In this document: positions 13,883 through 32,964 of the stretch, in pieces
Position numbering within the stretch: position 1 is the first letter of the stretch
Layout of the letters: every line of letters starts with the position of its first letter
From: a virus
IMG/VR virus record: IMGVR_UViG_3300025087_000193
Coordinates: 1 to 38,953 of that record
Length of the DNA stretch: 38,953 nucleotides
Strand: one strand, 5' to 3'
Position numbers and translations under genes: made by a program
The notes under the pieces: generated by a model
Told to the model about the DNA's origin: nothing
The model's database searches: none
The model's input: only the letters and a program-made list of their open reading frames with translations

Positions 13883-13926
13883 AACCAACCAAGATCGCCG
13901 GAGGGCGTTAAACTCGAAAGGTGAAC

Positions 13927-14373: not shown

Positions 14374-14390
14374 TGACGCGGCCGGATTCG

Positions 14391-14429: not shown

Positions 14430-14447
14430 TTTGCTTTGGAGGACACG

Positions 14448-15245
14448 ATGGGATTCCTTTCCACCTCTACGGTCACGGCACGGATTCCCAGCACGCGGAC
14501 CTTCTTGCAGGCCGTGGGCCGCATTATGAACGCCTGCGGCATCGACGCCCCGACCGACCTCGCAGACGCCTCTGCGGTCATCAACGTCAAACAGGCCAAG
14601 AACGCCTGCAACGACGCCCTGTCGCGCATCTGGACCGCCAACCGCTGGGAATGGCGGATGCGCCATATCTTCCTGGACATGGACGACAAGGTGTTTTTGT
14701 ACGACCTGCCCGACGACTTCGTGGAGGCCGGGGCCGGGCTCATGCGCGCCTACGATACCTCGCCCATGACCTTCATCGGGTACGGCGATCTGATGGTCAA
14801 GTACCCCGAGTTGGCCATGGCCGACGAAACCCTGATGACCGAGGGCGGGACCACGTTCAGCGACCTCATGGACGAAATGCTCGCCGACAATACGCAGTTG
14901 GGCAGTCTGCCCACCCACTGGACGATCACCGGCGACCGGCTCGGCCTGTTCCCCGTTCCCTGGCAGGACAACGTGGACAGCGACGATTGGACGAACAAGA
15001 GCCGACTGTTGGTCAGCTACTACGGCGCGTTGAAGGAACTGTCCGCCAACGCGGACACCCTGCCGATTCCGTTTGAGCTGTATCCCGCGCACCACTGGCT
15101 GGCCCTGGCCTACCTAAAGCAGGGGTTGGAGTATGGGGACTTCACTGCGGACGAGCAGCGCGGCGAGCGCCTGTTGCAGGTCGCGGTGGCCAAGTCGAGG
15201 CAGAAGCAGGCGGACACTTACGTTATGACGCCCGAGGGGTTCTGA
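14448..15245 (+). CDS. head-tail adaptor (tail tube) protein candidate
   Basis: ATG 14448 follows GGAGGACACG. The 265-residue protein has an all-helix N-terminal domain with NACNDALSRIWTANRWEWRM, followed by a beta-rich part with FLYDLPDDFVE and WTITGDRLGLFPVP and a helical end with HHWLALAYLKQGLEYGD. This order fits the gatekeeper or adaptor proteins under the portal in short-tailed phages (T7 gp11 or P22 gp4 role). It overlaps the next gene by one base. Confidence 0.65.
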   Translation: MGFLSTSTVTARIPSTRTFLQAVGRIMNACGIDAPTDLADASAVINVKQAKNACNDALSRIWTANRWEWRMRHIFLDMDDKVFLYDLPDDFVEAGAGLMRAYDTSPMTFIGYGDLMVKYPELAMADETLMTEGGTTFSDLMDEMLADNTQLGSLPTHWTITGDRLGLFPVPWQDNVDSDDWTNKSRLLVSYYGALKELSANADTLPIPFELYPAHHWLALAYLKQGLEYGDFTADEQRGERLLQVAVAKSRQKQADTYVMTPEGF

Positions 15246-17413
15246 TGCCCGGTTACGACGAAAAACTCGGCATGGAGATCATCACCTTTGGCGGGCTGAA
15301 CAGCAACGCCTCCGAGTTGTTCATTACGGGCAATAAGAGCCCGGACTTGCAGAACGTCGAGTTGACGCCCATCGGCGCGGTCACCAAGCGGCGCGGGCTG
15401 GAGTACCGAGTGGACGGCAGCGGGGATTACGTCGTGCCGGACGGAACGGGCGCGATCCTGTCGGTCATCCCGATCAACAACCCGGCGAACTCGACCACCG
15501 GATACCCGAGCGACGGTAACACATCGCTATTTGTTCACCGGGGCAACGAGTGCTCCAGATTGCGGACCGGCGTGGACGAGGATTATACCACGGCCATCTG
15601 CACGCTCAATTCCAGCAGCCGCCATGTGTCCTACGCGCAGGCCGGGTATTACGACGAGTCCAACGCCGACTACTGGCACAGCGCCATTTACTGCGTTTGC
15701 AGGGGCAGCGAGCCGTTCATCATCATTCGGCCCACGGTGTCTAGTCCTTCGGCAACTACGGTTACGGTCAGCCGTTCCGGGAACGAGGTCGAAGTCGGTG
15801 GTGGCACACTTGCCGAGGGCACGCTGATCAAGTTCGCCCCGGATGTGAGCAGCGCCTACTACGCCCTGCTCAACGGCAAGACCTTCCACATGACCAACAA
15901 GGACGCATCTAACGGAACGCAGCGCAACCTGTTGCGGGTCTATAATCCTACGGGAACTGTTGTCACACAGACCACCGGGGGCACCGAGGCGGGAGTTCCG
16001 GCGACCATTCAGACGTATTCCACGGACCCGGTGATCCGCTGGCCGCAAGGTGTCTATTCGGCGACCGCCGGGACTCGCGGGTACCCGCAACGGTGGGACG
16101 ACGTGGACAACGACAACCGCTCCTATTTCCCCAGGGGCGGCACGACCGATTTTCCGTCCGGGATCGTCATTGTTGGCGAGAGCCTGGACGCACGCGCCTA
16201 CGCCTTCGGTTTCGAGAAAGACCCGTGCAGAATCGACTACAGCGAATTGGGCGCACCCTACAACTTCCTCAAGCACGAGGTCATGTACGCCACCGAGGCC
16301 ACGGCCCCGGCGCAGCCGGGCATCGACGGCGGGTACTTCTACGCCGACCGGGGCGACGGCGACAAGGTTATCGGCATCAAGTCGTTCTTCCAGTACATCG
16401 CCGTGTTCAAGCGCCGCAAGGTCATGTTGTACCAGGGCGTGCCCGGCTCGGACACCGACCCGCTGCATCTGGTACAGACCTACCCTACCGGGGCCGTTTC
16501 CGAGCAGAGCATCGTCAAAGCCGGGAACGACATCTATTTCTGGAACGATGCGGGGCCGCAAAAGCTGTCGGTCGTCACTGAGTATGGCGATCTGCTTACC
16601 GACTCGATCTCATGGCCCGTGCGCGACCTCTGCCTGGATCTGAACAAGTTATACGCCTATAAGGTCGTCGGAAGGCACAGCAGGGACGACGGGCTCATTG
16701 ATTGGCATTTCCCGTCCGGCACCGGGCAGACCACGAACAACATGGTTTTGCGCTACTACTACCCGTCCCCGGAGCGGCTTATCGGCGAATGGTCGAAAAT
16801 GACCGGCAGGTACGCCAAGATGAACTCCGTGGCCGTTGTGGAGCAGGGGCCGGATTGGACCGAGACCTGCTTCGGCGGGTGCCTCGACCCCGTGACCGTC
16901 GAGGGCGGCAGCAGCGAGTACATGGTGTTTGAAATGGACAGCGGAGACGTCGACTCCTACGAGTACGACACCGCGACCTCGGCGTATGTCAACGAGCCCA
17001 TCGAGGCGTACTATGTCACCCGCTGGTTCGCGCCGGGGAACCCCGATATGGTCAAGCGCGGCCTGTGGGCCGAACTGGCCATCGGCAGCCTCGGATATGG
17101 CAGCATGGCCCTGTACCTCGGATCGGACTTCAGCCCCAACTTCGCGAGGATCAAGGCCGCGAACGTCACCGGCAGCACCACGGGCAGTAAGTGGGGGGAG
17201 TGCATCTGGAACTACCCGTCGTCGGGCGGCAGTCAGGAGCCCAGGCCGGACTTCGCCTACTGGAGCGAGGGCACCAGCGCCTACGGCCTGGTCCGCGTAG
17301 CCCTGAAGAATCTGCACAAGATATTCCGGTTCAAACTCTACGACAACGGCAACACCCGCTTTGAAGTGAGCGGGATGATCACCGACTTCCGACTGAAAGG
17401 TAATAGGGCATGA
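15245..17413 (+). CDS. tail nozzle/hub protein candidate
   Basis: The 722-residue protein begins with GGLNSNASELFITGNKSPDLQNVELTPIGAVTKRRG, typical of nozzle proteins of podoviruses (T7 gp12 or P22 gp10 role), where a short N-terminal segment precedes a large beta-propeller. The rest is strongly beta, with many Tyr, Gly and Ser residues and FQYIAVFKRRKVMLYQG near residue 380. It follows the adaptor gene by a one-base overlap. It probably forms the tip of the short tail. Confidence 0.7.
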   Translation: MPGYDEKLGMEIITFGGLNSNASELFITGNKSPDLQNVELTPIGAVTKRRGLEYRVDGSGDYVVPDGTGAILSVIPINNPANSTTGYPSDGNTSLFVHRGNECSRLRTGVDEDYTTAICTLNSSSRHVSYAQAGYYDESNADYWHSAIYCVCRGSEPFIIIRPTVSSPSATTVTVSRSGNEVEVGGGTLAEGTLIKFAPDVSSAYYALLNGKTFHMTNKDASNGTQRNLLRVYNPTGTVVTQTTGGTEAGVPATIQTYSTDPVIRWPQGVYSATAGTRGYPQRWDDVDNDNRSYFPRGGTTDFPSGIVIVGESLDARAYAFGFEKDPCRIDYSELGAPYNFLKHEVMYATEATAPAQPGIDGGYFYADRGDGDKVIGIKSFFQYIAVFKRRKVMLYQGVPGSDTDPLHLVQTYPTGAVSEQSIVKAGNDIYFWNDAGPQKLSVVTEYGDLLTDSISWPVRDLCLDLNKLYAYKVVGRHSRDDGLIDWHFPSGTGQTTNNMVLRYYYPSPERLIGEWSKMTGRYAKMNSVAVVEQGPDWTETCFGGCLDPVTVEGGSSEYMVFEMDSGDVDSYEYDTATSAYVNEPIEAYYVTRWFAPGNPDMVKRGLWAELAIGSLGYGSMALYLGSDFSPNFARIKAANVTGSTTGSKWGECIWNYPSSGGSQEPRPDFAYWSEGTSAYGLVRVALKNLHKIFRFKLYDNGNTRFEVSGMITDFRLKGNRA

Positions 17414-17928
17414 CGGACACAACGTTGACCGTAGTGCGTTGGACTGCAACCGAGAACCCGGCGCTGAGTGCTGAACAGGTCTACGAGGTATTGACCAAAC
17501 ACCAGCTTTTGCCAGAAAGCCCGGTCATGGCCGCAGCGACATGTAACGCCATGAGTGCCGAGTGTCGGCACTTCAAGATCGCCGACGAGTCCGGGGAGGT
17601 TGTCGCCAACGTGTTTGTCAGCGGCATCGCCGACGGCGAGGAGGCCACCTTGGACATCATCCCGGTGGCCAAGCATTTCCGCAGCGGGTTCGACGATCCG
17701 CTGAAAGAGGCCATGCGCCCGATATTGAACATCCTGTTCAACGAGCATCGCGTGCGCCGGGTCAACGCCTGCGCCCCGTTCTCCAGGTCGCGCACCAAAC
17801 GCGCCCTGTGCGCCCTAGGCTTTGTCCACGAAGGGCGCAAGCGCGGGGGCGTTCACCTGTTCGGCTGTCAGCCCGAGGACTTGCGGGAACTCGGACTTCT
17901 GAGGGAGGAATACCGTGGCAACAAATAA
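17410..17928 (+). CDS. GNAT-like acetyltransferase in the tail/ejection block
   Basis: The 172-residue product overlaps its neighbours (ATGA at its start). Its C-terminal half shows the GNAT pattern: LNILFNEHRVRRVNA, CAPFSRSRTKRALCALGFVHEG and a final beta segment. GNAT enzymes move an acetyl group from acetyl-CoA to amines. Short GNAT-like proteins are found next to ejection proteins of podoviruses, where they may be structural and not catalytic. The acetyl-CoA loop is not clear in sequence, so activity is uncertain. Confidence 0.6.
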   Translation: MTDTTLTVVRWTATENPALSAEQVYEVLTKHQLLPESPVMAAATCNAMSAECRHFKIADESGEVVANVFVSGIADGEEATLDIIPVAKHFRSGFDDPLKEAMRPILNILFNEHRVRRVNACAPFSRSRTKRALCALGFVHEGRKRGGVHLFGCQPEDLRELGLLREEYRGNK

Positions 17929-19456
17929 TCCCATGTTCGGTGGCGTACCGGGGGCGGACCTTGCGACCACTGCGGCCGCCACGGCCGTCAGCCCGTGGTT
18001 GACCGGTGGGTTGGCAATCGCCGACACCATTGCCGGGGGCCTGTTTGGGGGCGGTGGGCAAGAGCAACCGAGGAATACCACGACATACACCACCGGGGTC
18101 GCCGACCAAACCCTGAACACCGACCAAAACCAGTGGGGGCAGGATAACTCCTTCTCCAACGCGCAGGGCTACAACAACCAGCAGGGAAACACGTTCAACA
18201 ATGCGACCAATGCCGGGGTGACAGGTGGGCAGAACACCGGGTACGCCAACACCATCGGCCTGACCACCGGAGGCGGGACTGAGGCCGGGACTTCCACCGG
18301 GACGCAGCAGGTCCAACTGCGGGACTACAACGCCAACGAGCAGGCAGTCAACGCCGCCATCGGGCAGAACCTCCCGGGCATGTACGGCAACCTGACCGCC
18401 GAAAGTCAGAACCAGTACGTCCAGGACTTGCAGAAGGGCATGGCCGAACAGGGGCTCAGGAATGTCGGCGAAACCTTCGACCGGGCTGGAGCCGATCAGA
18501 AATTGGCCATGGCCAGGACCGGGACCGGGCCGGGCAGCATCGCCGCATCGCAGGCCGCCGAACTCGCGCACCAGCGCGGGATCGCCGAATCCGACGTGCA
18601 GACCAACGCCAGGCTGGCCGCAGAGTCCGCCGCCGGCCAACGCGCCGCCGTCAACCAGGGGGCCGCAGGAACGATGGCCGGGACCATGACCGGCATCGAG
18701 GGGTCGCGGCAAGTCCTGGGCTCGGCCAACACCGGAACCTTCGCCGGGCAGTCCACCAACTTGCAGAACACCAGTCAGGGAACCAATACCGGGCAGAACT
18801 TCTCCGGTTATAGCAACGACACTTCGTCCCAGGCTGGCGGGTTCTCAAACACCGGGCAAAGCGGGCAGAACGTGGTCGGCGGGTCCAACACCCAGGGCGG
18901 CTCGTCGGTCAATCAGACCAGCAACTCGCAGCAGAACACCGGCAGCGCGACCTATCCGACCGAGAACACGAAGCCGCTGAGTCTGACGATCGGCCAGGTG
19001 CCCGGGTCGCTCTACAACTCGGCTACGCCGGGGTCGCCGTATGCGACCGGTGGATCTGCATGGAATCCCGGTGGTAATAGTGGAAACCCATTGGATTGGA
19101 CGACCGGCGGCGGGAATGGATTCAACTACGGCAACGGCAGCGCAATGCCGGGCATGGTCGCACCGGGCAGCAACTTCAATGTCCCCGGCCTTAGCGGAAA
19201 CGCAGTGGGCCAGCCGCTACCGGGAGCATCCGCACCTGGTGTTGGGTCCACGATGTTCGGCCCGTACCCGCAGCCTCAGCCGGGCGGGACCGGATACGTT
19301 CCCCCCGCGCCCCCGGGCACGACCCTGCCTGCTCCCAGGGGCGCACAGACACCGGGCGGTCCCGGTGCGATGGTTCAGCCGATGCCAACACCGGTGCCCG
19401 CTCCGGTCGGCAAGCAGCCCTGGCCGCCGATCATGGGTGGGGCACAGCAGTTCTAA
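17915..19456 (+). CDS. low-complexity Gly/Asn/Gln-rich virion protein, 513 aa
   Basis: GTG 17915 is used, after GAGGGAGGAATACC and inside the end of the previous gene. Residues 1-50 hold a hydrophobic glycine-rich stretch. Residues 55-120 and 270-350 are built from Asn, Gln, Gly, Ser and Thr, with repeated NTGQ-type units. Residues 130-260 form a helical core (EQAVNAAIGQNLPG, AASQAAELAHQRGIAES), and the end is Pro/Gly-rich. It is the first of three consecutive large genes where podoviruses keep ejection proteins. An ejection-protein role is inferred. Confidence 0.6.
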   Translation: MATNNPMFGGVPGADLATTAAATAVSPWLTGGLAIADTIAGGLFGGGGQEQPRNTTTYTTGVADQTLNTDQNQWGQDNSFSNAQGYNNQQGNTFNNATNAGVTGGQNTGYANTIGLTTGGGTEAGTSTGTQQVQLRDYNANEQAVNAAIGQNLPGMYGNLTAESQNQYVQDLQKGMAEQGLRNVGETFDRAGADQKLAMARTGTGPGSIAASQAAELAHQRGIAESDVQTNARLAAESAAGQRAAVNQGAAGTMAGTMTGIEGSRQVLGSANTGTFAGQSTNLQNTSQGTNTGQNFSGYSNDTSSQAGGFSNTGQSGQNVVGGSNTQGGSSVNQTSNSQQNTGSATYPTENTKPLSLTIGQVPGSLYNSATPGSPYATGGSAWNPGGNSGNPLDWTTGGGNGFNYGNGSAMPGMVAPGSNFNVPGLSGNAVGQPLPGASAPGVGSTMFGPYPQPQPGGTGYVPPAPPGTTLPAPRGAQTPGGPGAMVQPMPTPVPAPVGKQPWPPIMGGAQQF

Positions 19457-19468: not shown

Positions 19469-21325
19469 ATGGGAATTTTCGGCAATCGCAATACTGGCGG
19501 CGTCCTGGGGGCGGCGGCGATTTCCGGGCTGTCCGAATACCTGCGCCAAAAGGCGAAGAATGACCTGCTCAAGGCCAAGGCCGAGGCCAAAGCCGAAGCA
19601 GCGGCGGCGGAAAAGGCCGATGAAGACGCCAAGTGGTGGCTGAAATTCAACCAGGACCAGGAGCCGATCGAAAACGCCAAACTGGATGATTTTCGTTCAG
19701 TCATGGATGGCGTTACTCCGATGAACCGGGAGGACAAGTACCTACAGTTGCGCCTGCTGGCCGGGAAAGACGAGGATCTGCTGCGGATGGCCGACCGCTT
19801 CGGCGAACAGTATGGGATTGTCCCGCCCAAGATGCCGGCCGCTCAAGGCCCCGCCGATGGTGCCGAGGCGTCCGCCCTGGGCGACGCCGTGCCCGGTCGC
19901 GCCGCGACGGCCGCGAGCAAGGTCATTCGCGGGGGCATCTTCGGGATCTCCACCAAAACCGGCGACAGTTCCGAAAGCAGGGTCGCCGATGTGTCGGGCG
20001 GGCCGCTGTCTTTCCTCGACCGCGTACGCAAGTCCGGGTACTCCGATCCGCAGGCATGGGCCGATGGCGGCGGACAGGCGGAAGTGCAGAACGTCTACAC
20101 TTCGGCCATGGCCGCTGTCCTTACCCGAGGCGGCCGTCCGTTCTTCGAGGCCATGCGGAATCCCGATGCCTTTCAGACCGCAAAGCTCGCGGGCGAAACC
20201 GTGATCGCCGAGCAGTATCCTGGGTTGCCCACGAAGGTCCGCACGGCGATCAGCGACTATTGGGACAAACAACAGGACGATCTGCTGTCCGATGACACCA
20301 CGCGCCGGGCGCTGGCCGAGGCGAATATCCGGTTGGCCACGTCCCGAGACAAGGTACTCGGGGAAAAAGTCACGATGGCGCAGAACATCATTATCAAGAC
20401 CCTGGCCCAGCCCAACGCCCAACAGGCGATGATGGCCGCAATGGCGGCCGGGGGCAGCTTTGCCGAGGCGTTTGGCAAAGATCCGGCGGCGGAAACGGCC
20501 GTGGCCACACAGCGCAAGGCGCTCGAAATCCTGACCAACGACCCGTCCATCGACCCGGCGTATGCGGCAAAGGCTGCCCTCGATGAGTTCGCCGGGCACC
20601 CCGGCCTGCAATCTCCCTACGGGGCGCGAGGCTACGATACCGTCGAGGAAATCGTTGACGGACAGACGGTCTCGCGCAAGGTCTTGCGCGACCTGCCGTA
20701 CGGATTCCCCAGCGACACGCCGCAGGAAATCCTTGACCTGATCAAGCGCGTTGGTCCGGCCGGGGTCATCCCTGCGGGATACGACCCGATCACCCATGAA
20801 CTACGGGTCGCAATCCCATTCAACGCGGCGGGGCAGGACACGGCGCAAACGTACATCACGGTGGATCGTGAGGGCGCGAAGAAGTGGAGTGCCGACCTGG
20901 ACAAGATTGAAGCCGCTAAGCAGGGCAATGTTTCCAGCGGCCTCCCAGAACTCGACGAGAAGGTCAAGGAGGCGTTCAAGGAAAGCGCCCCGCTGGTCGA
21001 GGAGGCCAAGAAGCAGGGCGATTCGTTCTTGAAGAAGGCCAAAGGTGCCGTCATCGGAATACCTGCGGCGATGGGGCGCGGATTCGGCGCTGGCGGTGGC
21101 GCAGTCGGATCTGCGGCGGGTGGGCTTTCCCGAGAAGCCGCGTCTTTCGCATCCAGCCTGTTTGGCGACGGCGACACGCTGGCCGAGGGGGACCAGGGCT
21201 CGGCCAAATTCAACGTGTTCGACCCAAACGAGCCGTTCCGGGACAAGACCATGCGCGACTACCTGCGGAATACCTACCCGCAGTCGGCCTACATCTTCGA
21301 CGGGCAAATCGGAGGTCGCCGATAA
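19469..21325 (+). CDS. internal virion (ejection) protein candidate, 618 aa
   Basis: ATG 19469 has AGGAGGCCGTG upstream; the GTG at 19466 is too close. The product is helical and Ala-rich, starts with a long coiled coil (LRQKAKNDLLKAKAEAKAEA), and ends with a glycine-rich hydrophobic stretch at about 530-560. Large helical proteins between tail genes and a giant polyvalent gene are typical of proteins that leave the head with DNA and build a channel through the host envelope. It overlaps the next gene by one base. Confidence 0.6.
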   Translation: MGIFGNRNTGGVLGAAAISGLSEYLRQKAKNDLLKAKAEAKAEAAAAEKADEDAKWWLKFNQDQEPIENAKLDDFRSVMDGVTPMNREDKYLQLRLLAGKDEDLLRMADRFGEQYGIVPPKMPAAQGPADGAEASALGDAVPGRAATAASKVIRGGIFGISTKTGDSSESRVADVSGGPLSFLDRVRKSGYSDPQAWADGGGQAEVQNVYTSAMAAVLTRGGRPFFEAMRNPDAFQTAKLAGETVIAEQYPGLPTKVRTAISDYWDKQQDDLLSDDTTRRALAEANIRLATSRDKVLGEKVTMAQNIIIKTLAQPNAQQAMMAAMAAGGSFAEAFGKDPAAETAVATQRKALEILTNDPSIDPAYAAKAALDEFAGHPGLQSPYGARGYDTVEEIVDGQTVSRKVLRDLPYGFPSDTPQEILDLIKRVGPAGVIPAGYDPITHELRVAIPFNAAGQDTAQTYITVDREGAKKWSADLDKIEAAKQGNVSSGLPELDEKVKEAFKESAPLVEEAKKQGDSFLKKAKGAVIGIPAAMGRGFGAGGGAVGSAAGGLSREAASFASSLFGDGDTLAEGDQGSAKFNVFDPNEPFRDKTMRDYLRNTYPQSAYIFDGQIGGRR

Positions 21326-24300
21326 TGCCGCAACTGATCACGGCAGAGGATCTTCGCAAGCAGGTCCTCCAGGACACAGGGATCGACATTTTTGCCACGG
21401 CCGGTGGTACGCGCAAGGAACTGTTGCCGCCCGGCCAGCACGCGAAGATCGTCTCCGAGCCCGAGGACATGGACGCGATGATCCGCGCCGCCCGCTACCG
21501 CCCGATTGACCAGAAGAAGGTCCAGCGGTGGCTCGCCGATCAGGAGGACACCCTTACCGAAACCGAGGGGCCTTACGCACAGGTCGATGACAAGAGCTTC
21601 TTCCAGGGACTCCTGGGTGCGGTGGACGAAATCGAGGATTGGGAGAGTTACGGAAAGTCACTGGCCTACGGGTTCTTGACCACGGGCACTTCCGCCGGCC
21701 TGGCTGTCGGCGGGCTTGCGGCCAAGGCCGGGCTTGGCGAGGGGATGGCCAAGACGTTTTATCGGGCTGGGGCGTACCTGGACGACAAACTCGGCACCGA
21801 CGATCCGAACGTGCTGAACCACCTGGCGTCAGGGGCGGGCTCGCTGATGTCCATGCTGATCCCTGCGGTAGGCGCGGCCGGAATGGTTAGCCGAGCTGCG
21901 TGGGCAGCGAAGATCACCGCCGGTCTCAAGACTGGGGGAGCGGTTGGGCGCGTAGGCAAATTCCTTGGTGGGCTGAAGGGGGTTACCGGCGGGGCGGTCA
22001 TGGGCGCCGGCGAGGGGATAGTAGAGTCTGGGCAGGTCATTCAGGAGGCCATGCGCCGGGGCGAGTCCGTCGAATCAGCATTTGACAAGGGCACCAAGGT
22101 CGTACTGCCCAATGTGGGGCTTTTGATGGCCACGGACGCCCTGATGTTCAGCCCCATGAACCGGGCGCTCCGCATGGTCACGAACGGCGTGCTTGAGGGG
22201 TTCGAGGAAACCGAGCAGAAGAACTTCTCCGAATGGGCGCAGGGGGATCGCGGGTTCGATCTGACGCCCCGCCTGGGCGTTGATTTCGCCGTGGGGGCAG
22301 TCTTGGGCGCTGGTGTGGGGGCGATGACGCACCGGATAGCCATGCCACAGATTCCAGAGACCGAGAACAAGCCCATGGGCCGCCCCGAGGGCCTGGGCAT
22401 GGACCCCCGGGCAGAGCAGGCCGAGGCCGTGCGCCAGGGGGCGACCGCCAGGGGGCTCAAGGACGAAGAACTGGTCGTGCGGGCGCAGCAACTCGAAACC
22501 CTGTTCCAGGCGTCCACGCGGGGGCAAGCGCAGACCAAAGACGAGGATTTGCTGGCCTACCAGGCGACCCGCAACGAGATGGCCCGGCGCGAACTGACGA
22601 CCCAACTCAAGGGCAAGTACACCTACGACCAGATGCGCGGGTTCGTGAAGAAGGGGCTCAACTACGGGCTGCACAATCTCAATTCGGAGCAGACCGGGTT
22701 CCTTTTCGGGGCCATCGACGTGCTGGCCAGCGACGGGCAATTCGACCCGAACATAGTGGCCCCGCTGTCGGCGCAGACGGCAGTCCACGGCGGGTTGAAC
22801 CTGAACGCCAGGTCCGTGCAAAACAGTGGGATCGTCCTGAAGGGGGCGACCTCTACCTACCGCGTCCCCGGCGGCAAGCTGTGGGCCGCCGCAGCGGTCG
22901 ATGGAAACTTGAACTACGAGGTCAAGATTTTCTCGGACGGGAAACAGGCGAAAGCATGGGTCGAGCAAGCTCAGCAGCAAATCGGCCAGGACCAGGGGTT
23001 CGCCAAGCAGGGGGTTGGCACCCTTGGACAACAGGCCGATCTCGCCATGGCCGAGCGCCAGGCTGCTCAGGCCGAGCGTGACGCAGCTTTTGCTGCCCTC
23101 GAACAGCAGCGGCAGGACAAGGTGGCTCGTGATTACGACGCCGCCATGGCGCAGCAGGCCGGGGTGGTACCCGGTGCCGCACCCGCCCCGGCGCAGGCGG
23201 GCCAACCGGCTGAGGCCCCCGCTGTGGGAATTGAGCCCCTGGCCGCCCCGCAGCCGCACCCGCAGCGCATCGGGGATGCTACGGCACCTGCGGAGCCAGC
23301 GCCAGTCCTGGGGCAACCTGAGGCCCCTGTAGTCGAAACGCTGCCCCCGCAGTGGACGACCCCGCAGACTTTTGACGATTTCAAGCGGCAGATGATGGAT
23401 GCTGCACCGAGCACCATTTTGAACATTCCGGGCATCGAGGCGGTCGTGCGCGGAATCGCCGGATACAAGGGCATGACCGTCGATGATTATGTTAAGTCGC
23501 GCTTCGCCGGGGTCGTCCAGGACAAGAACAATCGCCTTGCCCAAAACCAGGCCGCGATGGTCGAGTTTCAGCAGGACGGCCGGGCGCTCATCACCGCGCT
23601 CCAGCACGCCAACGTCGCGGACATGGCCCACGAACTGGCCCACATCTTCCGGCGAGACCTGAACCCCCTGGATATGGCGGCGGCGGTCAAATGGGCCGCC
23701 CCCAAGTCCGGCAAGTGGGCCGCCCGGGCCGAGGAACGGTTCGCCAACGGGTTCGAGCGGTACCTGCGGGATGGCCAAGCGCCGACCCCTGCGCTCGCCC
23801 GCGTATTCGAGAAGTTCAAAGCCTGGCTGCGCCAAATCTACAGCGCGGCCAGCGACACCGGGATGCTCAAGGAACTCAAGCCGGCGATCCGGCAGGTGTT
23901 CGACCGGATCATGGCCGGAGATCCGACGCTCGGGCGGGCGTCTTTCCCGTCCATCGCCAGGGCGATCCCGGCAGAAGTAAACCCGGACCTTAAGAATGCC
24001 GGGGTGCGCTCGGCGGTCGCTGCAACCGAAGAAGCCAGCCCCGCGACGGAAGCCTCCCCGGCAACAGTTCAAGCGGAGCCCGACGTGGACCCGCAGACTA
24101 TGAACGGCGAGCAACTGCGGCTGTTCAAAACCCGCCGCATCCAGCAGCTCAAGCAGCAGGGCGGGGTCGCCGCAGAAATCGGTGCCAAACTCGAAGCGCA
24201 GCACGAAGCGGAGGTCCGCGTCGCCAGAGGCGAGCCCGTCCCGTTCAGCGGTTGGGACCGCTTCTATTGGTCCATGTTGGACAATGCCCACCTGGCCAAG

Positions 24301-27081
24301 AAGGTCATGGAAGACGGCACCGGCAAGAGCATGGACACACTGTTCAAGGTCGGCCTGTCGCCCTATCACACCGTTCGTGGGCTGGTTCGTTCCTGGTCGA
24401 TTGTGGCCGGAGAGTTTGTCGCCGACGGCCCGTCGTCCATGAAAGTCCGGGGCAAGAAGTTCGCGCCCAAGGGACTAGAGCAGATCGTCAAGCCGATCCA
24501 GATCAAGCGGCATTACGAAGAATGGGGCCAATACCTGCGCGACCTGCGCCTGCTCAGTCGCGCTAAGACCACCCCGGACAAACTCACGCCAGAGGCGCAG
24601 CAGGATGTCGTGGGCGCACAGCGGCGCGTTCAGTTCCAGGAGGCGCAGCCTTGGGGTGCGGCCTTCAAGCAGACGGTCGAAGAGATCCGCCAGTACAATG
24701 ACGGACTGCTCCAGTTCCTCAAGGAAATGGGCATGGTCGATGATGCCGAGATCGCCCGCATCAAAGGCAGCGACGAGTTCTACGTTCCCCTGCAACTGGT
24801 GGAAAAGAACCGCGGGCGCGGGCCGGGGGCCAAAGCCGGACAGGCCATCAGCAAGCAGATAAAGCGGATGCACGAACTCGGCACCGATCCCACCGTACAC
24901 CCCTACGAGGCGATGATCGGCAACACCCACCGCATGGTCAACTCGGCGTTCAACAACTACGCCCGCCAGCAGGTCGCCGAACTGTCGCGCATGGCCCCTG
25001 ACGGGCCGTGGCGCATCCTCGACCCGAAGGAAATGGGCCGCATGGTCCAGGCCCCGGTATCCAGGATGCTCCAGGCTGCGGGCCTGGCCGAGGCCACGGT
25101 CGGGGACACCGACCAGACCGTCCGCGAGTACATCGCCGAACTCGCACAGGAGGCCGGGTACAACCAGAAGGAATCCGACAAGCTCGGCCGGCTGGCCACG
25201 CCCGGCTTCTTGCAGATGCCTGAGGCCATGGGCCGCCTGTGGCTGATGGATATCGAACTCGGTGAAAACCACCTGGCCTTTTTCGACACGGACGGCAAGT
25301 ACAAGATCCTGGAAGTTGACAAGCACATCTTCGACTTGCTGACCACCATGACTGGCCATCAGGCGAACAAACTGGCGGAAACGGCGTTCTTCCGCATGGC
25401 GCAGAAGATGACAGCGACCCTGCGTACCGGCGTCGTGGGCAGCCCCGACTTCTCGCTGGCCCGCAATCCGTTCCGCGATCTGATCAACGCCTTCATCGTC
25501 TCGGGCAGCAACGTCAACGTGCTGCGCCCCATGGAAACCGCCCGTTACTTCGGCCGCGCCATGACCTCCGTGTTCGACATCCTCGGCAAGAAGCAGGCGT
25601 ATCTCGACTACCTGAAATCCGGTGCGCCGATGGGCGAGTCCCTGTCCCTGGACATCGTGGACATGCGCGATAGGGCCGCAGATTCCATCCGCAAGGGAAC
25701 GTACACCAAGGGTGGGTACGTTTTCGCTCTGGCCACCCACCCGCAGTGGGCGCTCTGGGATGCGTTCTCGGCCCTGTGGTATCTCGCCCATGTGACCGAG
25801 AGTTCGACCAGGCTGGCCGTCTACAAGGGCACCATGGACAAGCTCGACCGCACCGAGCCAGGCATGGACTGGTTCCAGAAGCAGATGATCGCCGGAATGG
25901 CGGCCAGGGAGACCTCGACCGACTTCCAGCGTGCCGGGCATCACGGCCGAGCGCTGAACATGCTGGTCCCGTTCTTCAACGCAGGCGCTCAGGGCCAGGA
26001 CAAGATGATCCGCTCGCTCACCAGGGGGACCGCCGAGGACCGGATCAACACCATCGCCAAGGCCGTTCTGCTGGTCACTCTGCCGAGCCTCGCCCTGTGG
26101 CGCGAAAACAAGGACAAGGACTGGTACAAGAGCCTGGAGCCCTGGCAGAAGAACATGTTCTGGTGGAAGGAACTGGCCCCCGGATGGATCGTGCGCCTGC
26201 CCAAGCCCTTCGAGTTCGGCATGGCCTTCGGCTCGCTGCCAGAGCGGATCGCCGAACAGATTCAGGGCCGCGACGATCAGGCGCTTGAGGAATGGTTCGA
26301 TCAGATGTTGGCCGTCAACTCCCTGAGCCCGTCGGCAGTGTTCAACACCATGTTGCCGCCGATCAGCGCCTACAGGAACATCAACGCCAACTATGACCCA
26401 TGGCGGCGGGCACCGATCATTCGCGGCCGGCTTGCGGACACGCTGCCTCCGTTCCAGACCACCGAAAGCACATCGCAGTTCTTGACCTGGCTGTCCCCGG
26501 CGATCTACGACCTGACGGGCGTGAGCAACCGCCTGCTGGCCCCGGCCAACATGGAGTATTTCATCAAGTCCACCACCGGCACTATGGGCAAGTACGGGCT
26601 GAACGCGCTGGATCTGATGATCAAGGACGACCCGAAGGCCCCCAGGGACATCCCCTGGGCCTTCCGCGCCCCCGTGCTGCGGGCCGTCCTGCACCGCGAG
26701 GTCCAGCCGTGGGACAACAACAGCAGTCGCTTCTACGACGCGTTGGACAAGGCGCAAAGCGTCTACCTGACGATCTCGGACAACCTGCGGCCCGAAAAGG
26801 CCGACAGGCAGACCGCCGCCAGGACGATGAAACATGACGGTAAGTATTTCTTTATGAAACAACCGCTTGAGGCGTGGTCTTCGGCCGCACGTTCGATCAG
26901 TACGTTGATCAACGTTACCAAGACCTCGCCGGGAATGAGCCCCGACAAGAAGCGCCAGCAACTCGACATGCTCTACAGGCAGCGAGCCGAACTATTCGAG
27001 AAAGCCGAACGGTTCATCAGGGAGAACGACGAGGAATTCGAGAAACTGGCCGAACGCGCCGCAAAGAAACTCGGAGGATGA
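21325..27081 (+). CDS. giant polyvalent ejection protein with zincin-like domain
   Basis: At 1918 residues it is the largest product here. Residues 110-250 include several glycine/alanine-rich hydrophobic segments, which could insert in membranes. Residues 600-690 are a Gln/Pro/Ala linker. A metallopeptidase-like domain follows, with HELAH at 769-773 and EERFANGFERYL from 803, a layout seen in polyvalent proteins of phages and plasmids. Near residue 1380, FSLARNPFRDLINAF resembles the LPD38-type large polyvalent domain. Such proteins are packed in the virion and enter the cell with the DNA. Protease activity is inferred. Confidence 0.7.
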   Translation: MPQLITAEDLRKQVLQDTGIDIFATAGGTRKELLPPGQHAKIVSEPEDMDAMIRAARYRPIDQKKVQRWLADQEDTLTETEGPYAQVDDKSFFQGLLGAVDEIEDWESYGKSLAYGFLTTGTSAGLAVGGLAAKAGLGEGMAKTFYRAGAYLDDKLGTDDPNVLNHLASGAGSLMSMLIPAVGAAGMVSRAAWAAKITAGLKTGGAVGRVGKFLGGLKGVTGGAVMGAGEGIVESGQVIQEAMRRGESVESAFDKGTKVVLPNVGLLMATDALMFSPMNRALRMVTNGVLEGFEETEQKNFSEWAQGDRGFDLTPRLGVDFAVGAVLGAGVGAMTHRIAMPQIPETENKPMGRPEGLGMDPRAEQAEAVRQGATARGLKDEELVVRAQQLETLFQASTRGQAQTKDEDLLAYQATRNEMARRELTTQLKGKYTYDQMRGFVKKGLNYGLHNLNSEQTGFLFGAIDVLASDGQFDPNIVAPLSAQTAVHGGLNLNARSVQNSGIVLKGATSTYRVPGGKLWAAAAVDGNLNYEVKIFSDGKQAKAWVEQAQQQIGQDQGFAKQGVGTLGQQADLAMAERQAAQAERDAAFAALEQQRQDKVARDYDAAMAQQAGVVPGAAPAPAQAGQPAEAPAVGIEPLAAPQPHPQRIGDATAPAEPAPVLGQPEAPVVETLPPQWTTPQTFDDFKRQMMDAAPSTILNIPGIEAVVRGIAGYKGMTVDDYVKSRFAGVVQDKNNRLAQNQAAMVEFQQDGRALITALQHANVADMAHELAHIFRRDLNPLDMAAAVKWAAPKSGKWAARAEERFANGFERYLRDGQAPTPALARVFEKFKAWLRQIYSAASDTGMLKELKPAIRQVFDRIMAGDPTLGRASFPSIARAIPAEVNPDLKNAGVRSAVAATEEASPATEASPATVQAEPDVDPQTMNGEQLRLFKTRRIQQLKQQGGVAAEIGAKLEAQHEAEVRVARGEPVPFSGWDRFYWSMLDNAHLAKKVMEDGTGKSMDTLFKVGLSPYHTVRGLVRSWSIVAGEFVADGPSSMKVRGKKFAPKGLEQIVKPIQIKRHYEEWGQYLRDLRLLSRAKTTPDKLTPEAQQDVVGAQRRVQFQEAQPWGAAFKQTVEEIRQYNDGLLQFLKEMGMVDDAEIARIKGSDEFYVPLQLVEKNRGRGPGAKAGQAISKQIKRMHELGTDPTVHPYEAMIGNTHRMVNSAFNNYARQQVAELSRMAPDGPWRILDPKEMGRMVQAPVSRMLQAAGLAEATVGDTDQTVREYIAELAQEAGYNQKESDKLGRLATPGFLQMPEAMGRLWLMDIELGENHLAFFDTDGKYKILEVDKHIFDLLTTMTGHQANKLAETAFFRMAQKMTATLRTGVVGSPDFSLARNPFRDLINAFIVSGSNVNVLRPMETARYFGRAMTSVFDILGKKQAYLDYLKSGAPMGESLSLDIVDMRDRAADSIRKGTYTKGGYVFALATHPQWALWDAFSALWYLAHVTESSTRLAVYKGTMDKLDRTEPGMDWFQKQMIAGMAARETSTDFQRAGHHGRALNMLVPFFNAGAQGQDKMIRSLTRGTAEDRINTIAKAVLLVTLPSLALWRENKDKDWYKSLEPWQKNMFWWKELAPGWIVRLPKPFEFGMAFGSLPERIAEQIQGRDDQALEEWFDQMLAVNSLSPSAVFNTMLPPISAYRNINANYDPWRRAPIIRGRLADTLPPFQTTESTSQFLTWLSPAIYDLTGVSNRLLAPANMEYFIKSTTGTMGKYGLNALDLMIKDDPKAPRDIPWAFRAPVLRAVLHREVQPWDNNSSRFYDALDKAQSVYLTISDNLRPEKADRQTAARTMKHDGKYFFMKQPLEAWSSAARSISTLINVTKTSPGMSPDKKRQQLDMLYRQRAELFEKAERFIRENDEEFEKLAERAAKKLGG

Positions 27082-27082: not shown

Positions 27083-27985
27083 ATGAGCTTCACAACTACC
27101 GCATACTCGCATGTCACGGTGGCCAGGACCAACGACGCCGACATCGCGAACGGGCTTCCGGCCTCGGCCACGGACGTTGCTGCGGAACTGGATAACCTTG
27201 TCACCAAGGTCAACACGGTCGGAACGGCCGTTGACACCCTGTCCGACACGGTGCTGGCCGATCTGACCACCATCGACAAAGGGTTGGGCACCAACGATCA
27301 CACCGACCAGGCCGACCAGAACGTGACGCTCAACGCCACCACGGATGTCGGCAAGACCCATGTGATCCGCCACAACACCACCGCTCCGGCGACCGTGACC
27401 GTCCCGGCGATCTCGGGCATGACCGAAGGTTGGGCGTACCGGCTGTTCTGCCTGAACGAGATCGGCTGCATCGTGCGGATTCCCAACGCCGACAACGGAC
27501 TGGCGACATTGCAGGCCAGCGACTTCAACGATGGGGTCGTCACCTACGACTACGTTCCTCTGAATCACGGAGATTCCATGGAGATCTTCACCGGCCTGGG
27601 CACGGCCGGGACCGCGAAGTACCTCTACCAGGTGTTCCGGTGCGACCGCTTCATCTTCTGTCGGCAGGAGATCACGCACGCCGAGACGGCCAATTTCTTG
27701 AACAAGGCCAACATCCGCGTGGTGCTGATCGACATGAACGGGTCGTCCGGGAACGCCGCCGTCACCCTGCCGGATCTGACCGCCTCGGCGTCGCAGGTCT
27801 ACCACGGGGAGACGTTCATCATTTCCAACAGCGGGCACGCGACGAACACCGTCGTAATGACCTGCTCGGGCGCGGGGGTCATCACCGGCAAGGGAAACCA
27901 GTACGACGCCGACTATGCAATTGCAGCCGCGACCGTCGTGTCGATGATCGCCGACTGTGTGAACGACAAGTGGTACATGATCTAA
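27083..27985 (+). CDS. tail appendage or fibre protein candidate, 300 aa
   Basis: ATG 27083 follows CGGAGGATGAA at the end of the giant gene. The N-terminal 70 residues are a trimeric-coil-like helix (DVAAELDNLVTKVNTVGTAVDTLSD) and the rest is beta-rich with repeated Thr/Val strands, like the N-terminal adaptor and beta domain of tail fibres. Its position after the ejection genes fits a receptor-binding appendage. No specific family was recognised. Confidence 0.55.
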   Translation: MSFTTTAYSHVTVARTNDADIANGLPASATDVAAELDNLVTKVNTVGTAVDTLSDTVLADLTTIDKGLGTNDHTDQADQNVTLNATTDVGKTHVIRHNTTAPATVTVPAISGMTEGWAYRLFCLNEIGCIVRIPNADNGLATLQASDFNDGVVTYDYVPLNHGDSMEIFTGLGTAGTAKYLYQVFRCDRFIFCRQEITHAETANFLNKANIRVVLIDMNGSSGNAAVTLPDLTASASQVYHGETFIISNSGHATNTVVMTCSGAGVITGKGNQYDADYAIAAATVVSMIADCVNDKWYMI

Positions 27986-27995: not shown

Positions 27996-28394
27996 ATGAA
28001 AAGACTAGTCTTGCTCGCGCTCATGCTCGCCGCCGGTTTCGCGCTCGCAGAAGATCCCGGGTGGAAGCAGTACGACATCGCCGTGTCCGCAGGGGGATCG
28101 GTCTACACGACCGTTGATCACGGCAACCATTTCAGGATCAGGACCGACGACAGTGGGATCACGGCCCGGGTGTTCTACGCGGTCCGGGGCAGTAGCGGGT
28201 CGATCCTCAGCTACCAGCCGGTTCCCGCGCTGCCGGGATCGGGCTCGTACCCGGCTGCGGCCGACACGGTATTCACGATCTTCCCGACCTCGACGGATTC
28301 GTGGAACACCTTCAACAGCACCGAGATTGACAGTCTGCATCTGCACAACTCCAGCGGGGCGTCGATCACGGTCTACGTCCAGACGAGGTTGTAA
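27996..28394 (+). CDS. exported protein of unknown function, 132 aa
   Basis: Residues 1-18 are a clear signal peptide (MKR, Leu/Ala core, ALA before EDP). The remaining part is a small beta-sandwich-like chain rich in Ser, Thr, Tyr and Val, with no Cys and no enzyme motif. AAGGAGG precedes ATG 27996 and the stop is two bases from the start of the following exported gene, so the two are likely made together. It may be a partner or envelope-binding subunit of the larger protein. Confidence 0.6.
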   Translation: MKRLVLLALMLAAGFALAEDPGWKQYDIAVSAGGSVYTTVDHGNHFRIRTDDSGITARVFYAVRGSSGSILSYQPVPALPGSGSYPAAADTVFTIFPTSTDSWNTFNSTEIDSLHLHNSSGASITVYVQTRL

Positions 28395-28396: not shown

Positions 28397-31300
28397 ATGC
28401 GCCGTAAAATTGCCGGGTTCGCGGTCCTGCTGTTCGGCGGGGGCATCGCCGCGCTTTCGATGTTCGGCGGTGGCGGCGACGGGCCGGGGGCCGGGTTTCA
28501 GGACTTTCCCGGCGCGGGCGCGGGGTTTGAAGTGGAGGCCATCGCCCCCATCGACACCTTCCGCCTGCTGGTGCGCGACGCGGGCAATCCTCCGGTTGCG
28601 GCAGTGGATTCGGGGTGGGTTCTGGCCGACGTCGCCTATGACTTTATTGTAAGCGACACTGACGGATCAGGGCTGCGGTACGCAGGGATCATCAATACAA
28701 GCCCAGACACCGTGAGTACGACGATCTTTCCTTATGGCGCGAGCGCCGGACGCATGTTCGGCCAGGACGACAACGTGACGAAATTCGGACAGAATGTATA
28801 TATTTGGTTCGACATTTCCGACCTGCCGAGAAACTGCAAGATCGAGGACGCCTACGTCACGCTCTGCACCGGCCCACCCGCGTGGTTTGACTGCACTTTC
28901 ACTACCGGCTACGTCGAGGCCCGGGCCGACACCCACACCGCTAATTTTCAGATGTTGCAGACTGCGGGGATCGACGGCGATCCGTCGTGGATGTCCATCT
29001 CGTGGAATAACGTGGACAACACTCCCGGCGCGGAGATTGCCTGGGAAGTGTCGATGGGCAATCAAGACGACTGGCACGATTTCGGTCCGGCTGGCGCGCC
29101 CTACGCGCCTGCGGCGATCATCCCCGAGAACAGCGCCTATCGGCTCGACGTTTCCGATCCCATCCAGCAGATCATCGACACCGGGAATCAGGGGCGCGGG
29201 GTGATCGTCGTCCCCCACTTGGTCGGCGGAACGGTAACGAGCTTCCCGATTTCCTTCGGCGACCACGCCACATATCAGGCGCTTGGCAACCCGTGCTTAA
29301 CCGTCACGGCTACCACCAGGCGCGGGGTGCGTCCGTGGGGCGGGGTCAAGGTTCCCGTGTCGCTGGTGTTCGACGACGCCAGGGACGGCGAGGACGTATT
29401 GTTTGCCGCCATGAAGGCCGCCGGGTTGACCTTCAATGCCGCCCCCTACGGCGATGCGTGGACTACCGGCGATGACAGCCTGTGGTCCGCGAACGAGCCA
29501 GCCGACTATCAGTTTATCGCCCATAGCCTTACGCACGCGAGGCTCGGCGACATGGCGCGAGGCCAGACACTTGCCGACGAGCTGGTGCGCGAATGGTATC
29601 CGACCGCGATTGACGGCTACGTCGCGGCCGACACCACCGCGATCACCGATTACGCCTGGCCTGCCGGGACGGGCACCAAGGTCTATGGATTTCCGGCTAT
29701 CGCTGCGATGATGGACCACGGCTACAGGTCCAGCCGGGGGATCATCTGGGCGACCACCACGCCCATCGGAGAAATCACATTTGCGTCCTGGGACGAGTTT
29801 GTAAACATCTTCGCCGTGCAATCCTACGGGGCCACCGCGATCTGGACCAGCCCGACCGACCAGGCGGCGTTCACCGACAATTTCTGGGATTACGTTGATC
29901 TGTGCTACACGAACTATGGCAAGTCCGCTGCGCTGATCTACACGCACGGACAGTCCAACAACATCACCGAGACCGGCATCGGCTGGCTTATCGACCTGCT
30001 CGCCGCCAACCCGAGCGTGATCAGATACATGAACCATGAGGGGGTGATCGACTTCTTGGTCGCCCACAAGACCGCCGTGCCGCCGTCGATGGTCACGGCC
30101 GCCAATGGGGCGAGTGCGACAACCGTCACGGCCGCCGCGAAGTTCGACTCCCTACTGTCCGCCGATGGTTCGGACGCGCTGTGGGTTGACGACGTTTGGC
30201 TGGCCCCGGTCGATTGGGAATGGCCGTCCGGCACACTTGGCGGCCTGACCGTGGAGAAAGACACCCACATCGGCGTTGCCTTTCCCGGCGACACCACGAC
30301 CGTCGATTATACCTATCTCGGCGAGATCGGCGCTGGGACCGCCAGGATCAACGTCAAGTGGAGCGACTACCCGAGCAACCTGGCGGCGACGGTGCAAAAA
30401 TTGCACGCCCTCGAAAACCGGGGAATCACTCCGGTCATCACGCTGGTCTGCGACAAAACCGACTCGACGATGGCCGGCAGCGGGACCTCCAGGGACGGTG
30501 CACCGTCTGACGGCACCGCGTTCGACACCGAGGCGTGGGAGGCGTTCGTCCAGTGGCTTGCCGAGAAACTGGACGCCGACACGGTGAACGACCAGGCCGA
30601 CATCAATGTGGCGATCAATCAGTTTCATTTCCCGAACGAATGGACGACCCGCAACAACGCCTCCGGCGGATGGCGCGGGACATATTCAAACCTGAGCGCG
30701 ACCGTAGACAGTACCAAGGTCGCGCTTGCCCGGGCCAACGCCAGCGCGGTGCTGTACCTGGGCGGGCCGTCCTCGATCTACTCCGACATCATGCTGCTAT
30801 CCGAGGGCGCGGAAACGCTTGCCGAGGGGTACACCGCCTGCAACGAGAACGGCTGCGCCACGGCCGATACCCTGACCGCCTACGAGGCGCACGTCGATAG
30901 CATCGTGACCGTGTTCGGCTCGACCACGGCCGACAACATCAGCCTGCACCAGTACGGGCCTATCCGCAACGTCCGCCAGCGCGAGGCGTTCTTCGATTCC
31001 CTGTGGGTCGCCAACATCCCCGTGACTGAGGCCGGCGGTCCGAACCTCAACTACGACGCCGCACCGACCGACCTGGAGAAATTCGACTTCGCCATGGACG
31101 TGAACCTGTACTCCTGGTCGCAGGGAGCACCGTTCGTCTGCTGGCTGAAACTGTTCGACGACGGAACCGAAAACGCGGGCGAAGAAGACACCCCGCTGTT
31201 GGTTGGGGACGGCCAGACGGTCACGACCTATAGGCCCCAATGGTACGCCTATAAACTGCTGGCCCTGGTAATGCAGGACTTCTCCAGCGTGGCCCGCGTC

Positions 31301-31534
31301 GAGGACGGGGTCTACAAAATAACCCACACCGGCGCAGAAGAAACCTACATCATCCTGCCCGGCCACGGGGATGGTATATATACTATCCCCGCAAGCGTGG
31401 CCTTCAAGCAGGCCCTTTGGATTACCGACTTCACCAGCGGCGCGTACACGCTCGTTCAGGTGCCCGTATCCGGGTCCGTAATCGGGCACACCGCCGCGTG
31501 CATGATCGCAAGCGAGAAAATCCTGATTCCATAG
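28397..31534 (+). CDS. exported NodB-like deacetylase plus GH-A-like glycosidase fusion
   Basis: The 1045-residue protein starts with a signal or membrane segment (residues 4-22). Residues 80-305 resemble a DNRLRE-type beta-sandwich (YIWFDISDLPRNCKIEDAYVTL). A NodB-like deacetylase domain follows: SLVFDDA with D326/D327 and HSLTH at 376-380, the motif pair that binds metal and removes acetyl groups from sugars. From about 590 a TIM-barrel-like region shows FPNEW (N747-E748) and VTEAGG (E878), then CWLKLFDD, which fits acid/base, nucleophile and last-strand Trp of clan GH-A. It probably works on host surface polysaccharide. Confidence 0.65.
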   Translation: MRRKIAGFAVLLFGGGIAALSMFGGGGDGPGAGFQDFPGAGAGFEVEAIAPIDTFRLLVRDAGNPPVAAVDSGWVLADVAYDFIVSDTDGSGLRYAGIINTSPDTVSTTIFPYGASAGRMFGQDDNVTKFGQNVYIWFDISDLPRNCKIEDAYVTLCTGPPAWFDCTFTTGYVEARADTHTANFQMLQTAGIDGDPSWMSISWNNVDNTPGAEIAWEVSMGNQDDWHDFGPAGAPYAPAAIIPENSAYRLDVSDPIQQIIDTGNQGRGVIVVPHLVGGTVTSFPISFGDHATYQALGNPCLTVTATTRRGVRPWGGVKVPVSLVFDDARDGEDVLFAAMKAAGLTFNAAPYGDAWTTGDDSLWSANEPADYQFIAHSLTHARLGDMARGQTLADELVREWYPTAIDGYVAADTTAITDYAWPAGTGTKVYGFPAIAAMMDHGYRSSRGIIWATTTPIGEITFASWDEFVNIFAVQSYGATAIWTSPTDQAAFTDNFWDYVDLCYTNYGKSAALIYTHGQSNNITETGIGWLIDLLAANPSVIRYMNHEGVIDFLVAHKTAVPPSMVTAANGASATTVTAAAKFDSLLSADGSDALWVDDVWLAPVDWEWPSGTLGGLTVEKDTHIGVAFPGDTTTVDYTYLGEIGAGTARINVKWSDYPSNLAATVQKLHALENRGITPVITLVCDKTDSTMAGSGTSRDGAPSDGTAFDTEAWEAFVQWLAEKLDADTVNDQADINVAINQFHFPNEWTTRNNASGGWRGTYSNLSATVDSTKVALARANASAVLYLGGPSSIYSDIMLLSEGAETLAEGYTACNENGCATADTLTAYEAHVDSIVTVFGSTTADNISLHQYGPIRNVRQREAFFDSLWVANIPVTEAGGPNLNYDAAPTDLEKFDFAMDVNLYSWSQGAPFVCWLKLFDDGTENAGEEDTPLLVGDGQTVTTYRPQWYAYKLLALVMQDFSSVARVEDGVYKITHTGAEETYIILPGHGDGIYTIPASVAFKQALWITDFTSGAYTLVQVPVSGSVIGHTAACMIASEKILIP

Positions 31535-31548: not shown

Positions 31549-31749
31549 ATGGTCAGTCAGCAAGAAACAGACATGAGAGAGATTCTTACCCGGCTCGCCC
31601 GCATTGAACAGAAGTTGGAGGACCGCGACGCCCGCCTGGACAAAATCGAGGCGACACAGGGCAAGCAGAGCATGATCTCAGCGACCATCGGGGCCGTGGC
31701 TACCGCCCTGGTCCTACTGGCCAAGTGGCTGTTCTCGAAAGGAACGTAA
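31549..31749 (+). CDS. XhlA-like small holin or anti-holin, 66 aa
   Basis: The product has an N-terminal coiled coil (MREILTRLARIEQKLEDRDARLDKIEATQ) and one C-terminal membrane segment (ISATIGAVATALVLLAKWLF) ending in a basic tail, the layout of XhlA-type lysis proteins. It is directly before the endolysin gene, overlapping it by one base. It may act as a holin or as the partner of the two-segment protein encoded after the endolysin. Confidence 0.65.
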   Translation: MVSQQETDMREILTRLARIEQKLEDRDARLDKIEATQGKQSMISATIGAVATALVLLAKWLFSKGT

Positions 31750-32132
31750 TGGGTACCCCCTCACAATGGCGAAACTTCACTGTAGAGGAATTGACCTGCC
31801 GCTGCGGATGCGGGCAGATGAAAATGGACCCGGGATTCATGGCGCACTTGGAGACCTTGCGACTGGTGTTCGGCGAGCCCATGACCGTGACCTCTGGCTA
31901 CCGCTGCCCGGCCCACAACGCCTCAGTTTCGTCCACGGGCGACGGCGGGCCGCACACGACCGGCAAGGCGGTGGACATCCAGATCAGCGGCGTAGCGGCC
32001 GCCAGGCTCGCCAGGATGGCCATGAACATGAACTTTCGTGGCATCGGCCTGCGCCAGCACGGACCCGTCGGCCAGCGGATTGTCCACCTGGACGAAATTT
32101 TGAGGCCTGAACAGATCATTTGGACCTACTGA
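31749..32132 (+). CDS. endolysin, peptidase M15 family
   Basis: The 127-residue enzyme cuts peptide cross-links in peptidoglycan. It shows the M15 zinc ligands: H69 and D76 in PHTTGKAVD and H113 in RIVHLDE. The order TSGYRCPAHN before them is also typical. An N-terminal CRCGCG cluster (18-23) is common in this phage subfamily. It has no signal peptide, so it needs a holin for release. ATG 31749 shares one base with the previous stop. Confidence 0.88.
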   Translation: MGTPSQWRNFTVEELTCRCGCGQMKMDPGFMAHLETLRLVFGEPMTVTSGYRCPAHNASVSSTGDGGPHTTGKAVDIQISGVAAARLARMAMNMNFRGIGLRQHGPVGQRIVHLDEILRPEQIIWTY

Positions 32133-32676: not shown

Positions 32677-32964
32677 ATGAAAAGATTGTTACAATTCAAG
32701 CTGCGGATCGCCGGTGCGCTGGCCCTGCTCGCCGTGCTGTTCGGCCTGCGCCGGCGCGGGCCGTCCAAGCAGGAGAAGCGCGTCACCGAGGCCCTGGGCG
32801 GCGCGGTAGATCGTGCGGTCAAGGCCGAGACTGCCGCCAAGGAGGCGCAAGCAAATGTGGAAATGGCCGCGAAACGTGCTGTTCCCGGCTCTGTTCGCGT
32901 GCGGACTGCTCTTGCCCGCGCTCGCACTCGCCGAGCCCGTGACGGAACCGCTGACGGCGGCTGA
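32677..32964 (+). CDS. inner-membrane spanin candidate, 95 aa
   Basis: The product has a basic start, one N-terminal membrane segment (IAGALALLAVLFGL), and a long charged Ala/Lys/Glu helix, as expected of an i-spanin that links inner to outer membrane during lysis. The next gene is nested in its 3' part in another frame, the same arrangement as Rz/Rz1. The last 30 residues are Arg-rich and may be shaped by the overlapping frame. A small TTATC / GATAA inverted repeat surrounds its ribosome site. Confidence 0.55.
   Translation: MKRLLQFKLRIAGALALLAVLFGLRRRGPSKQEKRVTEALGGAVDRAVKAETAAKEAQANVEMAAKRAVPGSVRVRTALARARTRRARDGTADGG

Follow-up and report, generated by a model that had tools for sequence, protein, structure and literature searches.

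The window, that is, the whole 38,953-base stretch of DNA analysed here, is a record of an uncultivated podovirus (short-tailed phage) that encodes a terminase (7589–9124), a SU10-type portal (9493–11514), a major capsid protein (12404–13492) and a SU10 adaptor (14436–15245). Further along, on the plus strand, lie the genes for a 1918-aa internal virion protein with an LPD38 domain (21325–27081; Pfam PF18857, E 7.7e-29) and for a 300-aa fibre-like protein without a signal (27083–27985). The latter occupies a position matching that of an annotated 305-aa tail fibre in MW202898, the likeness being one of position only, as the two proteins share no sequence similarity. Directly upstream of the gene studied here (28397–31534, plus strand), the 1045-aa multidomain product of which is referred to below as P0001, lies that of a 132-aa protein (27996–28394, plus strand) whose cleavable signal peptide is of textbook form. 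On the 3' side, the same strand carries genes for a 66-aa holin-like membrane protein (31549–31749; weak XhlA match, E 0.069) and an endolysin of the peptidase M15 type (31749–32132; PF08291, E 1.3e-18), and the P0001 gene is thus situated between virion and fibre genes on one side and holin and endolysin genes on the other. Neither tRNA genes, Rfam families nor an integrase were found in the 38,953-base record; a temperate lifestyle or a role in lysogenic conversion was considered and set aside given the lack of an integrase in the record, though the record may be incomplete. The window also encodes a DUF5662 protein (1267–1743, E 6.8e-27) and a possibly spanin-like 95-aa protein with a single transmembrane stretch near its start (32677–32964).

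The P0001 reading frame is uninterrupted, opens with ATG and shows a coding signature in its codon-position GC content (0.58/0.49/0.81). The first methionine is favoured as the start over the next ATG (M22), since it is preceded at a distance of 8 bases by GAGG and GC3 is 0.81 across codons 1–21, whereas M22, a start at which would delete the leader, lacks a good ribosome-binding site. The preliminary description of this DNA, made from its letters, had named a set of motifs, and all of them are present in the translation where it had placed them: FDD (residues 325–327), HSLTH (376–380), NE (747–748), TE (877–878) and CWLKLFDD (915–922). Its N-terminal hydrophobic export segment is likewise borne out. 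The leader (residues 1–23; 28397–28465) begins with RRK at residues 2–4, followed by 19 mostly hydrophobic residues, and the stretch at residues 4–23 is by far the strongest transmembrane-like segment of the protein. It has the positive n-region and the hydrophobic h-region of a signal peptide; under a crude cleavage rule it offers weak sites only (for example between ALS and MFG) and no clear A-x-A site, so it may be either a signal peptide or a signal anchor. In the 132-aa upstream neighbour the signal peptide is MKRLVLLALMLAAGFALA, followed by EDP, with cleavage between FALA and EDP. A Gly-rich linker (residues 24–43; 28466–28525) follows the leader in P0001.

No relative of the whole protein was found in Pfam, PHROGs, PDB, phages, plasmids or IMG/VR, nor among 395 genomes of the phylum to which G038 belongs, and direct queries of genome contigs and the above collections, whether by the full-length protein or by its separate domains, returned nothing usable. 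Each domain was therefore tested through intermediates, and conservation of the active sites within a true family of P0001 cannot be judged. Two weak tblastn matches were rejected, one in Rhizobium phage RHph_I1_18 that runs antisense to unrelated genes and one inside a small hypothetical gene of Gordonia phage DumpTruck (E 1).

The beta-sandwich region of the preliminary description corresponds to a likely DNRLRE-type domain (residues 129–271; 28781–29209). It matches the NCBIfam model DNRLRE (NF033679) with E 3.5e-4 when the whole protein is searched and 1e-5 for the fragment, the score of the latter (25.7 bits) being under the curated cut-off of 34, and it matches Pfam Disaggr_repeat with E 0.034. 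DNRLRE domains are CBM96-type modules of secreted enzymes, and this region of P0001 is likely to be a divergent, carbohydrate-binding relative of them.

The next region (residues 315–568; 29339–30100) contains the motif string of the CE4 carbohydrate esterases: D326, D327, H376, H380, P422, G424 and H517. Motifs 1 (FDD) and 2 (H[ST]xxH) are present at CE4 spacing. In an alignment with seven phage NodB domains, D326, D327, H376, P422, G424, H517 and D552 are invariant, and D326, D327, H376, H380 and P422 are invariant in another that combines P0001 with nine other sequences. P422 and G424 of motif 3 (xxPxG) are aligned in both, H517 of motif 5 (LxH) only in the former, and motif 4 (DxxDW-type) was not recognized in P0001, where residues 440–500 align poorly. 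Among 50,000 shuffled versions of the protein, the pair FDD..HSxxH arises in 12 and the full string, with P.G and xH added at CE4 spacing, in none. The same full string occurs in a single member of a decoy set of 2,523 sequences (2,000 shuffles and 523 viral ORFs), and that decoy is a true NodB protein. Sequence profiles gave scores that are not significant alone: P0001 reached 0.1 bits (no signal) with a profile from the seven phage sequences, and 7.4 and 6.2 bits (E 0.3–0.7) with two profiles based on wider sets. In both of the latter, P0001 nevertheless ranks above all 2,523 decoys other than one true NodB protein. Pfam contains no NodB/CE4 match for P0001, a NodB query against 270 genomes produced chance-level matches only, and degenerate DNA patterns for FDD..HSxTH found no matches in IMG/VR.

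An AlphaFold model of this domain, built from ten sequences, is of low confidence (pLDDT 50, pTM 0.53). In a Foldseek search with the model CE4 deacetylases lead (E 4e-4), and phage NodB proteins lead among viral models. VIA-align places the turret protein of HFTV1 first (Z 12.8, 198 residues, 3.8 A), and most of the entries ranked behind it are CE4 structures, with Z of about 10–13. Given that the alignment behind the model consists of NodB sequences, the CE4 match is partly circular and is to be read as consistency rather than independent proof. In the fold check proposed in the preliminary description, CE4 enzymes thus head the matches of a low-confidence model built on NodB sequences, and an AlphaFold2 run on residues 300–1045 without an alignment was uninformative (pLDDT 32) and was discarded. 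Taken from motif order, decoy rank and the low-confidence CE4-like model, residues 315–568 are probably a divergent NodB/CE4 deacetylase domain.

The C-terminal part of the protein (residues 590–1045) was compared with 285 genomes and gave one weak match, L146, a 462-aa bacterial protein that contains an ENEW motif and bears a signal peptide itself (BLASTP E 3e-8 when only the two proteins are compared, corresponding to 5.8e-5 per genome and about 0.02 over the 285 genomes). A family profile constructed from 22 bacterial segments, relatives of this protein, matches P0001 at residues 622–974 (30260–31318) with 37.3 bits (E 2.1e-10), the best of the 2,523 decoys reaching 9.5 bits. As the choice of L146 had rested on its similarity in residues 945–997, a stricter test was run without that protein and without that region, and it still gave 16.3 bits (E 5.8e-4), with the next decoy at 5.8. 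In the alignment, N747–E748 and T877–E878 fall on the NE and TE catalytic columns of the family; P0001 contains three NE and four TE dipeptides, and as such dipeptides are common, the motifs carry weight only via the profile match. Members of the family match Pfam models of the GH-A families GH44, GH42, GH5, GH39, GH53 and GH10. Run against the PDB with P0001 as one of its 15 rows, the family profile finds PslG first (E 9e-13), with the NE/TE columns on the NE/TE of PslG, and GH39-type beta-xylosidases are prominent behind it. P0001 itself has no direct match to the GH39 model PF01229, its likeness being only through the intermediate family, and it is therefore filed as a GH-A domain of the PslG/GH39-like type rather than as a member of GH39. 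On these profile statistics, residues 622–974 can be firmly assigned to the GH-A superfamily, with E748 as the putative acid/base, a role taken in this clan by a Glu that follows an Asn on strand 4, and E878 as the putative nucleophile, for which the clan uses a Glu on strand 7. The fusion of NodB-type and GH-A-type domains that had been read from the motifs is thus supported, for the second domain by the profiles and for the first with the probability given above. The remaining C-terminal region (residues 975–1045; 31319–31531) is beta-rich, and its start extends the match to the bacterial protein. A search of genome contigs with a GH pattern returned 16 stretches, the coding ones mostly GH39-like Microgenomates proteins, which were rejected because the NEW element lies outside their active site.

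The leader was placed in context by a survey of 80 IMG/VR loci with an LPD38 protein, in which ORFs were tiled mechanically and scored by a crude hydropathy rule. Among ORFs of at least 400 aa, signal-like leaders occur on 8 of 47 downstream of the LPD38 gene, as against 10 of 209 upstream (p 0.007, or 0.018 when one near-duplicate contig is omitted). Carriers in the slot behind the LPD38 gene were found in L031 (821 aa, 11580–14042), L071 (984 aa, 12728–16612) and L004 (917 aa, 15481–18231). In L017 (409 and 744 aa, 13451–17510) and L041 (424 and 760 aa, 12320–16689) several occur in a row after this gene, and one of those in L041 matches a tail-spike family and Beta_helix. The carriers include a beta-helix protein matching a tail-spike family, together with a NosD-like beta-helix protein and the protein in the fibre slot of MW202898. 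Shewanella phage X14 has an annotated tailspike gene immediately behind its LPD38 gene. This position, the beta-helix and tail-spike carriers and the MW202898 fibre identify the slot as that of the tailspike, in which leaders are recurrent. The preliminary description had regarded a signal on a tailspike as unusual: the leader of P0001 is real, and several large proteins in the same slot of related phages, tailspike-like ones included, carry one too.

Several known systems resemble P0001 in part. PslG (PDB 5BX9/4ZN2), an exopolysaccharide hydrolase of family GH39, is the closest solved structure to the bacterial family of the GH-A domain, although it is bacterial, lacks a CE4 domain and is similar only via that intermediate family. 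CE4 esterases are also joined to glycosidases in secreted multidomain bacterial xylanases (PDB 7AX7, 2C71), which are, in contrast, feeding enzymes with other GH families. PgaB and BpsB differ from P0001 in being bacterial biosynthesis and export proteins that are not phage-borne, lack a DNRLRE module and have a hydrolase of another family, GH153 in PgaB. They nevertheless follow the plan that is proposed for it, in which one polypeptide is exported and carries a CE4 domain at the N-terminal side of a glycoside hydrolase acting on a surface exopolysaccharide (PMC5933820), and PgaB chains match the NodB alignment of P0001. As the hydrolase of PgaB cuts the deacetylated polymer (PMC5933820), deacetylation followed by backbone cleavage may be proposed for P0001 by analogy with this division of labour. 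Turret protein gp31 of HFTV1 (PDB 8QPG) is a viral protein in which a carbohydrate-binding-like domain precedes a CE4-like deacetylase domain (PMC12494034), but it belongs to the capsid turret of an archaeal virus and no GH-A domain is reported in it; its binding and CE4 domains are located on the virion and are proposed to modify a host glycan (PMC12494034).

Its place in the tailspike slot and its make-up, in which an export-like leader is followed by a likely sugar-binding module, a probable deacetylase domain and a glycosidase domain, suggest that P0001 probably strips the sugar coat of the host. The DNRLRE-type module would hold the polymer while the metal-dependent NodB/CE4 domain removes acetyl groups, with D326 as the presumed base and D327, H376 and H380 as metal ligands. 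The GH39/PslG-like GH-A domain would then cut the backbone through its two glutamates. Most likely, the leader would direct P0001 to the Sec pathway late in infection, for insertion into the host inner membrane or passage across it, and the small signal-bearing protein encoded upstream may be exported together with it. Upon holin and endolysin action, P0001 might remain in the envelope or be released, so that progeny would be freed from the host matrix, and it could also bind progeny particles. This reading, a late-expressed, Sec-exported two-step enzyme that strips the host surface polysaccharide, may be given an even chance of being correct.

Against it stands the slot of P0001, which is also that of ordinary tailspikes, and an ordinary virion tailspike or fibre depolymerase, with an N-terminus that packs on the tail or anchors in the particle and with enzymes acting at adsorption rather than exit, is a serious if less probable alternative. 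The gene follows those for the internal virion protein and the fibre-like protein, in the slot of the X14 tailspike and the MW202898 fibre, NodB domains are present in annotated phage tail proteins, and the best VIA-align match is a virion turret with carbohydrate-binding-like and deacetylase domains (PMC12494034). The signal-like character of the leader, with its RRK and hydrophobic run, the textbook cleavable signal peptide of the adjoining 132-aa protein and the lack of any recognized tail-attachment domain in P0001 argue the other way. Both lines of evidence would be true if P0001 were exported by Sec, processed and then bound to virions at or after lysis, as the recurrence of leaders on the large tailspike-slot proteins of the five loci would allow; this is unlikely, as no tail-binding element was identified in P0001 and the virion location of the slot proteins is itself presumed.

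Other alternatives concern the domains rather than their destination. One or both barrels might be degenerate and serve only to hold sugar, in keeping with their marked divergence (about 15–22 % identity to relatives) and with the existence of CE4 pseudoenzymes (6hm9/7bkf); the retention of the metal ligands and both catalytic glutamates amid divergence elsewhere makes this distinctly unlikely. That the motifs are due to chance, with neither a NodB nor a GH-A domain present, would agree with the lack of a Pfam, PHROG or PDB sequence match and with the uninformative first single-sequence model, but is very improbable in view of the profile and decoy tests, being already unlikely for the GH-A domain. 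The idea of the exported enzyme can also be extended broadly to podoviruses that encode an LPD38 protein; their tailspike-slot proteins would carry Sec leaders and act as depolymerases exported through the host membrane during infection, subsequently arming the particle from outside at lysis or freeing progeny from the matrix. Under this rather doubtful generalization, P0001, with its two enzymes, would represent the extreme.

Each part of P0001 is of a known kind; their combination in a phage, together with the leader, appears to be new and represents a PgaB-like arrangement in a phage. With both activities and the sugar-binding module, the protein would be a candidate tool for attacking exopolysaccharides that are acetylated. 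Should the leader function as a Sec signal, it would be informative about the way in which phages deliver enzymes of this type, and the recurrence of leaders in the same slot makes the question of delivery testable in other phages. The broader occurrence of leaders on tailspike-slot proteins, a pattern that rests on a crude rule, may be the more interesting point.

Tailspike deacetylases of Acinetobacter phage Aristophanes, E. coli phage G7C and Pectobacterium phage Possum deacetylate host polysaccharide, as proposed for P0001, and, in contrast to it, the accessible portions of the source articles describe no backbone-cutting partner for them and assign those of G7C and Possum to SGNH hydrolases rather than NodB (PMC11126041, PMC9569702). 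As far as those portions extend, each of the phage depolymerases compared has one activity, as either a deacetylase or a backbone cutter. The motif order of the P0001 NodB domain recurs in tail proteins of Staphylococcus phages Alsa_2/Madawaska, Bacillus phage G (gp673), Arthrobacter phages and a TM7 phage. None of the phage loci fetched, however, contained a GH-A relative from the family seen in P0001, and the pairing of NodB with a GH-A domain of this kind is therefore new for a phage as far as searched. One viral contig (L220, 2923–3678) encodes a NodB protein of 252 aa that stands alone and has a signal-peptide-like N-terminus, and in another phage of the LPD38 group a NodB domain is found in a tail-type protein encoded upstream of the LPD38 gene (L038, 371–2077; L088, 1051–2748).
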